From IMG/VR virus record IMGVR_UViG_3300021599_002585, positions 1 to 25,227 of that record: a stretch of 25,227 bases of DNA; one strand, written 5' to 3'. A model generated the notes under the pieces. That model was not told where the DNA came from and did no database searches. It was given only the letters and a program-made list of their open reading frames with translations. Source of the DNA: a virus. The translations under genes were made by a program, and so were the position numbers. This document shows positions 3,836 through 16,215 of this stretch, in pieces (position 1 is the first letter of the stretch; each line of letters starts with the position of its first letter).

Positions 3836-3949
3836 ATGAGAAAGATCATTTTAAGCTTATTGTTTTTAGGAATGATGCCTACTGTGGCACTGTCCCTTGA
3901 TAACCAGACTCAAGAAATACTTGAGAAAAGAACTTGTCAGTGTAATTAA
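3836..3949 (+). CDS. Possible small exported peptide
   Basis: A 37-codon reading frame starts with MRKIILSLLFLG, then MMPTVALS. A basic start, a hydrophobic run and a small-residue end look like a signal peptide, followed by a short mature part ending in KRTCQCN. It begins 18 bases after the peptidase stop on the same strand. No clear Shine-Dalgarno site is visible. It might be a lysis-related or secreted peptide, or the remnant of a longer gene. No function is recognised and it may not be expressed. Confidence 0.3.
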   Translation: MRKIILSLLFLGMMPTVALSLDNQTQEILEKRTCQCN

Positions 3950-3971
3950 GAGGCGATACCGTGGGAAGTTG

Positions 3972-4226
3972 GATTGTAGATAGATTGTAAATAACCCTAT
4001 TTACAATCAAACCCTTTAGCCTGTCTAGGTTTCAGACTTTGTAGATGCCGTTGATGCTTTATAGAGAAAAAAAAGAAAATAAAGTAAAAGGAAAAGACAG
4101 CCTCAACAGTAAGAGCATAAAAAAAATAATATCGGGGGATAGTGTCAACAGTATCTACAAAGTCTAGAAGCTATATATATCAAGGGTTCCATTGTTAATA
4201 ACAATATCTACAATCTATTGACAATC
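3972..4226 (+). repeat. Complex palindromic element, copy A (255 bp)
   Basis: Two 11-bp units GATTGTAGATA (3972-3982) and GATTGTAAATA (3983-3993) are followed by ACCC and the exact complement TATTTACAATC (3998-4008). The right end has two units in the opposite orientation, TATCTACAATC (4205-4215) and TATTGACAATC (4216-4226). Inside lies a second, longer inverted repeat (about 4029-4062 against 4138-4172) around the shared core AGACTTTGTAGAT. The central spacer is A-rich. A diverged copy in the same orientation lies at 13180-13432. No protein frame and no target-site duplication were seen. It could be a structured RNA, a replication or recombination site, or a MITE-like element. Confidence 0.85.
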
Positions 4227-4261
4227 TAACAATGACTACCAGTACAGGACACTAAAAAAGA

Positions 4262-5002
4262 GAGGGGATTATCTTAATCAATGATTGTCTTGTCGTTGAT
4301 TCTCGATTGATTGCCTTAGAATTGGGGATTGAACACCGCGCTTTAATGCAAACAGTCAAGAAATATTTAACAGAAATTCAAGAATTTTGAACTCTTGCAT
4401 TTGAAATGCGAGAGTTCAAAACGGCTCAGGGTAACACTTCCAAAGAGACTTACTGTTACCTAAATGAAGAGCAGGCAACTTTTTTGATGACGCTTTCTCG
4501 AAATACTTCGCAGGTCATTGCTTGTAAGCGCAACTTAGTCAAGGCATTTACTCAAGCAAAACAACTCATCAAAGAAGTAATCCCCGCTCAAAGTGGACGT
4601 ATTCGAGAATTAGAACTTGAGCTAGAACTAACAAAAGCCAAAACCTATTATATGGATCGGCGTGACGCAATTCGACTAATACATGGTGCTGAGGTCTTAG
4701 CCTTGTTAGATGGCCGTCCAGATATTGTGATCGAAAAGGTTGAAAAAGTCACCGAAACAATTATCTGTAAAAACGGACGGAATGTCAGCTTCGAGGGTCG
4801 CTCTACTGCCGATCTAGGGAAAGAACTAGGATTCAAGACTGGAAAAGAGTTAGAACGTTGGCTAGAGAAAAACGGTCATTCCCATTTGGTGTGTCAGGGG
4901 TTGCGAGTTAATCAAGCGTCCTATATCCCCACCGAAAACCTTAAGGAAGTTAAACAACTTTTTTCTAAGGTTAGAAACCGTCAACTATTAATCGGAGAAT
5001 AA
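4262..5002 (+). pseudogene. rha: Rha-family phage regulatory protein, interrupted by an in-frame TGA
   Basis: One frame encodes a Rha (pRha)-type phage regulator broken by a single stop. Before the stop, 4262-4387 reads into VVDSRLIALELGIEHRALM and ends IQEF. After TGA at 4388-4390 the same frame continues TLAFEMREFKT and then the hallmark YLNEEQATFLMTL and ACKRNLVKAFTQAK. Family members usually have Gly after EF, so GGA to TGA is the likely change. No ATG is visible at the 5' end: the frame follows a GAGAGGGG tract and could start at ATT, or the start is lost too. The 3' part keeps a ~198-codon frame from ATG 4406, but no ribosome site precedes it. A C-terminal domain (about 4650-5000) follows a short coiled coil. 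Readthrough cannot be excluded. Confidence 0.8.
4385..4421. repeat. 37-bp near-perfect palindrome spanning the rha stop codon
   Basis: The left arm 4385-4402 and right arm 4404-4421 pair over 18 positions with one exception (T4396 with G4410, a wobble in RNA) around a single central G. The interrupting TGA (4388-4390) is in the left arm. The ATG at 4406 is in the right arm. Confidence 0.9.
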
Positions 5003-5006
5003 AGTT

Positions 5007-5036
5007 AAAAGTGCCAGTCTATGAACTGGCACTTTT
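5007..5036. terminator. Bidirectional intrinsic terminator
   Basis: AAAAGTGCCAGT and ACTGGCACTTTT form a perfect 12-bp stem around the loop CTATGA. The A and T runs at the two ends let it work in both directions. It sits four bases after the rha stop and four bases before the stop of the convergent minus-strand RHH gene. Confidence 0.85.
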
Positions 5037-5040
5037 AGTA

Positions 5041-13179: not shown

Positions 13180-13432
13180 CATTGTAGATAGATTGTCAAT
13201 AACCCTATCGACAATCAAAATCCTTGCAGGAACTGGGTTTTAGGCTTTGTTAATACCGTTGACGTTCTATAGAGGAAAAATAAAAAAGAAGAAATAATAA
13301 ACGAGCTGGACAATAAGAGAGGCAAGAGAAAACAATATTGGGGGATAGCGATAACAATATAAACAAAGCCTGAAACCTATATATATCAATAGTTCCATTG
13401 TAGATACCTTTATCTACAATCTATTTACAATA
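13180..13432 (+). repeat. Complex palindromic element, copy B (253 bp)
   Basis: A diverged copy of 3972-4226 in the same orientation. The left end is ATTGTAGATA then GATTGTCAATA (13191-13201), ACCC and TATCGACAATC. The right end is ATTGTAGATA (13397-13406), CCTT, TATCTACAAT (a perfect 10-bp stem), then TATTTACAATA. The inner arms share AGGCTTTGTT on the left and its complement AACAAAGCCT on the right, where copy A has AGACTTTGTAG and CTACAAAGTCT. The motifs GGGGGATAG and CTATATATATCAA are kept in both copies. It occupies most of 13125-13460, where no gene is seen. Confidence 0.85.
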
Positions 13433-15816: not shown

Positions 15817-16215
15817 ATGAACATTAGCCAGAATTATAGAGAGCAACTGTATAAAATTATAGTTCGAGATAAATATCTCGAACTATCTCTTGAGGCACAA
15901 GATTGGATCGATAATTTATTGAAAGCATCTGAAACCAACCAAGTAACTAATGATATACTGACCTGGTGGTGGAAAGGGGATATACAAAAAGGAAACATCG
16001 CGTACTTATCCGATGATAAATGGAATCTTTCTTTTCTTAATCGGTTTAAATTTTGGGTTATAACTATTCTTATGCCTATATGCACAGGAGTTACTATTCC
16101 TTCTCCTCTTAGAAAAGACTTTGATCTTTTCAGAAAAGCTTTAACACTAGCGTCAATCTTTCTAGTAGAAAAAGGGTGGTACGAGGAAATAACCGACAAT
16201 ACAACTCAGGGGTAA
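15817..16215 (+). CDS. Hypothetical protein, TGxxIP family member 2
   Basis: A 132-residue protein. The N-terminal part (YREQLYKIIVRDKYLELSLE, AQDWIDNLL) and the C-terminal block (FWVITILMPICTGVTIPSPL, RKDFDLFRKALTLASIFLVE) are shared with its neighbours. It is the best-preserved short form of the family. AGGGAGTAAAACA precedes the ATG. A perfect 28-bp palindrome lies at 15859-15886, within codons 15-24. Function unknown. Confidence 0.68.
   Translation: MNISQNYREQLYKIIVRDKYLELSLEAQDWIDNLLKASETNQVTNDILTWWWKGDIQKGNIAYLSDDKWNLSFLNRFKFWVITILMPICTGVTIPSPLRKDFDLFRKALTLASIFLVEKGWYEEITDNTTQG
15859..15886. repeat. Perfect palindrome inside a coding region (13-bp arms)
   Basis: ATAGTTCGAGATA, AA, TATCTCGAACTAT. 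The arms pair at all 13 positions. The neighbouring paralogs do not have it at this place. Confidence 0.9.

Follow-up and report, generated by a model that had tools for sequence, protein, structure and literature searches.

Antirepressors help to set when prophages leave lysogeny. The gene analyzed here belongs by profile to the Rha/antirepressor family (PF09669, TIGR02681, PHROGs 63, 373, 518 and 2657) and carries a DNA dyad within its codons. A comparable arrangement is known from the lambda-O-type replication initiators (the phi80 gp15 sites), which have binding sites in their own gene and in which protein and site move together. Intragenic operators exist as well, e.g. the galE internal operator, which shares with the Rha dyad its operator-like symmetry and its place inside a coding sequence. 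At the level of mutation, quasipalindrome correction, in which one base change improves the pairing of imperfect arms, resembles a change found at this locus.

We analyzed a stretch of 25,227 nucleotides of cyanophage DNA (IMG/VR record IMGVR_UViG_3300021599_002585, positions 1 to 25,227), hereafter the window. The features in and around its rha gene are as follows, with positions counted from the first base of the window:

3836..3941, plus strand: remnant of a 97-codon gene, about 180 bp of which were lost at 3941/3942
4279..4280, no strand: deletion junction, identified by comparison with relatives; its left end lies in their terminator-like inverted repeat
4280..5002, plus strand: rha remnant (Rha/antirepressor family) from codon 9 to the stop, startless and with one internal stop
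4385..4421, no strand: palindrome of 18-bp arms (4385-4402 and 4404-4421) around a one-nucleotide centre, G4403, with 17 of 18 positions paired
4388..4390, plus strand: in-frame TGA, at a position that is Gly in intact relatives and in the family
4390..4416, no strand: 27-bp dyad (arms 4390-4402 and 4404-4416, centre 4403), with 12 of 13 positions paired in the window
4406..5002, plus strand: residual open reading frame of 198 codons from ATG 4406, the start codon lying within the right arm
5006..5037, no strand: terminator-like inverted repeat downstream of rha (listed on the minus strand in the scan)

The frame 4262-5002 is open except for the TGA at 4388-4390. In a profile search, its read-through protein scored 51.4 bits against Pfam Phage_pRha (PF09669, cut-off 29.9), compared with 54-65 bits for intact relatives, and consecutive parts of the profile matched on either side of the TGA. 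The open frame and the profile match confirm the preliminary description, which had reported an rha gene broken by one TGA with Rha motifs on both sides; its expectation of Gly at the stop codon was also correct, since the intact relatives have GGA. A protein search matched 30 loci from IMG/VR, of which four (L006, L007, L008 and L029) have the same N-terminal allele and palindrome as the window; no confirmed relative was obtained by scanning a bacterial genome collection. Every relative examined contains 149-150 bp at 4279/4280 that are absent from the window, and this segment holds the leader of rha, its start codon ATG and its first eight codons. In other words, when compared with its relatives, the window rha carries two lesions, the start deletion and the TGA, and is not an intact PF09669 gene. 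The 149-bp deletion has its left end (window 4260-4279) within a terminator-like inverted repeat, which reads GAGAGGGGATTA...TAATCCCCTCTC in L006. The junction showed no microhomology, and a search of other viral contigs did not recover it. Following the upstream stop at 4253, the only in-frame starts ahead of the TGA are TTG 4307 and TTG 4322 and then ATG 4346, with no in-frame ATG or GTG between 4253 and 4346.

The hairpin had also been proposed to act in readthrough or in a restart at ATG 4406. We rejected such a programmed event as unlikely because the 149-bp deletion took the upstream start codon, the leader and the first eight codons, and because the right arm of the stem contains ATG 4406. 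Owing to the same deletion, full-length rha would be dead even if base 4388 were a sequencing error. Within the last 429 bases of rha, five of the changes private to the window were synonymous and one was not (p about 0.005 under a neutral 3:1 ratio). Because such a 5:1 excess is unlikely for a long-dead gene, the window rha may be a recent pseudogene, the alternative being that selection still acts on its truncated product. We also considered and rejected an overall decay of the phage, since the frames for the tail tape measure, a tail protein and the primase/helicase are open when compared with those of relatives; the clear losses near rha concern rha itself and the small gene before it. Two further observations were made in this region. 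The small gene after the NlpC-like gene has a middle part that is highly variable among L006, L007, L009, L020 and L028 (near 4200-4400). Two copies of a non-coding element, about 250 bp long and with abundant TTGTAGAT and ATTGTAAATA motifs, lie in the window (3944-4279 and 13181-13431); they are about 75% identical, and relatives carry the element too.

The stop had been placed in a palindrome with 18-bp arms and one T-G exception, and we found precisely this: T4396/G4410 is the sole unpaired position, and T4388 of the stop codon pairs with A4418. No other 17/18 palindrome with a spacer of at most 6 nucleotides was found in the window, and none at all in 40 dinucleotide shuffles. The palindrome is not a dispersed repeat, its sequence being confined to the four relatives, and none of the other contigs that share it has the stop. 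With GGA in place, 17 of 18 positions are paired in L007, L008 and L029 and 16 of 18 in L006, compared with 17 of 18 in the window with TGA. Because these intact close relatives keep GGA with a palindrome as good or slightly worse, the palindrome predates the stop and is not the product of the stop mutation; in addition, its 27-bp core is conserved in the family.

The proposal of quasipalindrome correction by template switching survives in part. Relatives do have GGA, and L006 is less perfect than the window, but the event did not create the palindrome, and homologues with an equal palindrome and GGA, named beforehand as the finding that would count against template switching, were recovered. 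The window differs from described quasipalindrome correction in that one base was changed, 15 positions away from the centre and beyond the conserved 13-bp arms; in that another mismatch, T4396/G4410, was kept and no linked multi-base copying from the other arm was observed; and in that the palindrome is older than the mutation. A single-base template-switch correction at 4388 is possible, since, of the 112-121 single changes by which the intact relatives' gene could acquire a stop, one alone improves the palindrome. Such a correction and an ordinary G-to-T change are indistinguishable here because just one base changed and the case was picked post hoc. Opinion is evenly balanced on the view that the stop, taken alone, is an ordinary point mutation or an assembly error in a start-deleted dead gene, with the palindrome unrelated: the leader and start codon are deleted, no palindrome-sharing contig has the stop and a single contig supports the TGA, but the new base is precisely the pairing one.

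We then compared the dyad across the family. To keep the palindrome out of the selection, most Rha genes were gathered via a downstream QATLLMT motif and by tblastn searches of phages and plasmids in GenBank. Proteins were profile-aligned, and the centre was fixed by the protein alignment at the base that opens the codon following the wing Phe (the F of FGxVxFE). Reduction of redundancy at 80% DNA identity left 106 genes, from phages and plasmids of cyanobacteria, actinobacteria, firmicutes and proteobacteria. As the null, we used codon shuffles that preserve the protein and the codon usage of each gene, and compared pairs at each distance from the centre.

Across these 106 non-redundant genes, a dyad of 13-bp arms and one central base was found at the same codon. 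At least 10 of 13 pairs were formed in 83-86% of the genes, compared with approximately 2% of synonymous recodings (85.8% versus 2.4% when the best centre within 6 bases was taken), and at least 12 of 13 pairs in 34.9% versus 0.024%. With the centre fixed, the z value was 35 for all genes, 12.9 for the 29 genes with less than 55% DNA identity and 16.5 for the 18 GenBank records, and the signal persisted in GC-rich, middle and AT-rich genes. Complementarity extends over distances 1-13 (z 6-14 over shuffles) and ends at 14; distances 3 and 9, which are fixed or nearly fixed by the protein, lie at expectation. The lowest values are those at 7 and 9, and the mismatch in the window dyad, at distance 7, is thus among the two least conserved pairs. 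The dyad is present in GenBank phages, in plasmids and in IMG/VR, and distant Rha genes also have inverted repeats at the equivalent place. Synonymous recoding rules out that the protein sequence alone brings about the palindrome. These gene comparisons show that a large Rha/antirepressor subfamily holds one 27-bp DNA dyad in the codons for the first strand of a predicted wing-like hairpin, and that, as DNA, it is kept more symmetrical than the protein needs.

The arms vary widely between phages yet remain complementary. For example, they read CTTGGTCGGATTT-g-AAATCCGACCAAG in Gordonia phage GAL1, AAGGGTCGCGTTT-g-AAACGCGACCCTT in L093, GACGATAACATTT-c-AAATGTCATCGTC in L128, GTTTTTCGATTT-c-AAATCGAAAAAC in a Planktothrix plasmid and ACTTTCACGATT-cta-AATCGTGAAAGT in L080; these examples have their length and an A/T-rich centre in common and little other sequence, and the AAGGGT class is the commonest. 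The GAL1 dyad pairs at 13 of 13 positions, and that of M. smegmatis phage Saal at 12 of 13. At distance 11, the pairs are AT in 19 genes, TA in 26, GC in 47 and CG in 10, with 4 mismatches, and at distance 5, GC (49) and CG (45) are similarly frequent. A second intragenic palindrome was observed elsewhere in the window, at 15860-15885 within the open reading frame 15817-16215 (TAGTTCGAGATAAATATCTCGAACTA, 12 of 13 pairs).

Complementary arms might also be expected if the dyad had no function and template switching homogenized the arms of an existing inverted repeat, the GGA-to-TGA change in the window being a misfired event. The TGA base is indeed the pairing base, one of the 112-121 stop-making changes, and the window has one mismatch fewer than L006. 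However, in every clade the dyad ends after 13 bp, and at distance 14 the synonymous base by which it could grow occurs less often than expected (z -4.4; TTT 28 versus TTC 14, p = 0.01), which disfavors passive growth by template switching. Moreover, the dyad occupies one and the same codon across phyla, not one of the 723 Phe codons found elsewhere in these genes reaches 10 pairs, and T4396/G4410 was left uncorrected. We consequently regard homogenization without function as very improbable.

The codons at the centre bear on whether the site acts as DNA or as RNA. Of 99 genes, 93 use TTT for the central Phe; among GC-rich genes, 40 of 45 do so, compared with 91 of 422 Phe codons elsewhere (p = 2e-19), and the Glu codon next to it is GAA in 66 of 73 cases versus 658 of 1426 elsewhere. 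The innermost pair is thus constrained although it would lie in the loop of any hairpin, which indicates duplex DNA. An rha mRNA hairpin, serving translation control, pausing or as a nuclease site, would account for the covariation of the arms, and the window RNA is predicted to fold into 17 pairs (-21.3 kcal/mol, z -4.5). Against it stand this strong constraint on the loop positions with their TTT codon, the absence of G-U enrichment among dyad mismatches (20.5% versus 24.4% expected) and the absence of an Rfam match in six rha loci, and we consider the hairpin unlikely. From these patterns, the dyad looks like a duplex-DNA site.

A model of the N-terminal domain (pLDDT 93.8) has helices at residues 16-23, 27-36 and 38-44 and strands at 49-55 and 61-69, an order of elements that we read as a winged helix; in this model, the residues encoded by the dyad, 45-55, form the beginning of the wing-like hairpin. 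A PDB fold search with the Rha domain returned nothing significant, and no solved structure related to it by sequence was found; a DNA-binding fold is assumed for Rha from the family names. We found no second copy of the dyad in the whole phage or satellite genomes of GAL1, Javan334, phiP4-7 and SPN9CC or in the window, and the best other site in those genomes matched at 16-19 of 27 positions, the level of permuted motifs. A set of operators like that of a phage repressor was therefore rejected for the four genomes and the window, and in the absence of second sites nothing indicates that other genes are regulated via the dyad. A partial Mantel test of dyad-helix co-variation beyond kinship gave nothing specific, and co-specificity of the dyad and the helices was likewise set aside.

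Symmetry beyond the coding constraint together with a defined length is expected of the operator of a dimeric protein, and the dyad has both. We consider the chances about even that it is a self-addressed operator of Rha, for which it would be the candidate site. In such a mechanism, a Rha dimer would bind the duplex dyad in its own gene, and bound Rha would limit its own transcription by repression or as a roadblock; the dyad would travel with the domain when the cassette is exchanged. In the window, the 149-bp deletion removed the rha start, and one base change produced the TGA beside the dyad core. A duplex-DNA site for a partner other than Rha, i.e. a host or phage protein, or a function in recombination, replication or packaging, would equally explain symmetry at the DNA level, and phi80 rha is annotated with DNA synthesis inhibition in IHF-minus hosts, though it lacks the dyad. 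However, the arms are so diverse between phages that one conserved partner seems improbable, and there are no second copies, in contrast to the operators of phage repressors; we find such a partner rather unlikely.

The founding member of the family, phi80 Rha, lacks the dyad (its best match is 9 of 13 pairs, at a different codon), and the second Rha of phage phiP4-7 lacks it too; both belong to another branch. The dyad is therefore a trait of a subfamily, and approximately 10% of the sampled branch is without it. Among the alleles of the window group, A has a strong dyad, and B and C match in the inner and outer parts, not in the middle. In L006, L009, L028 and L031/L032/L035, the N-terminal domain behaves as an exchangeable cassette: three alleles of Rha and one AntA-like domain were seen, all joined to a nearly constant C-terminal domain. 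Broken rha copies were also seen in L161 (Streptococcus satellite Javan441) and L166 (L. plantarum plasmid), one with a stop just after the wing and the other with a frameshift further on.

Returning to the self-operator, it would imply a widespread class of phage antirepressors, to which we give an equal chance of being real or not, whose own DNA target lies inside the codons of the DNA-binding domain; the sequence of this target would vary while its symmetry is kept, residues encoded by its two halves would covary via the DNA constraint, and protein and target would form one cassette. If true, this would be a clear case of DNA both coding and serving as a site, restricting the residues of the wing. 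A single conserved site in the gene offers a direct experimental handle on Rha, and a candidate target could be read from the gene itself for most members of the dyad branch.

No description of a dyad in rha was found in Rfam or in the open literature searched, and a conserved, covarying single self-site in antirepressor wing codons appears to be new. The Rha family has been described as protein only; we found no report of a DNA dyad in the gene, and the founder, phi80 Rha, is without one. Lambda-O-type initiators have several repeated sites and an origin, whereas here there is a single 27-bp dyad whose sequence varies between phages. Intragenic operators of the galE type are bound by a repressor whose gene lies elsewhere, and partner operators accompany them; in contrast, the Rha dyad is single per genome (in the four genomes and the window), lies in the gene of its likely binder and extends across phyla.
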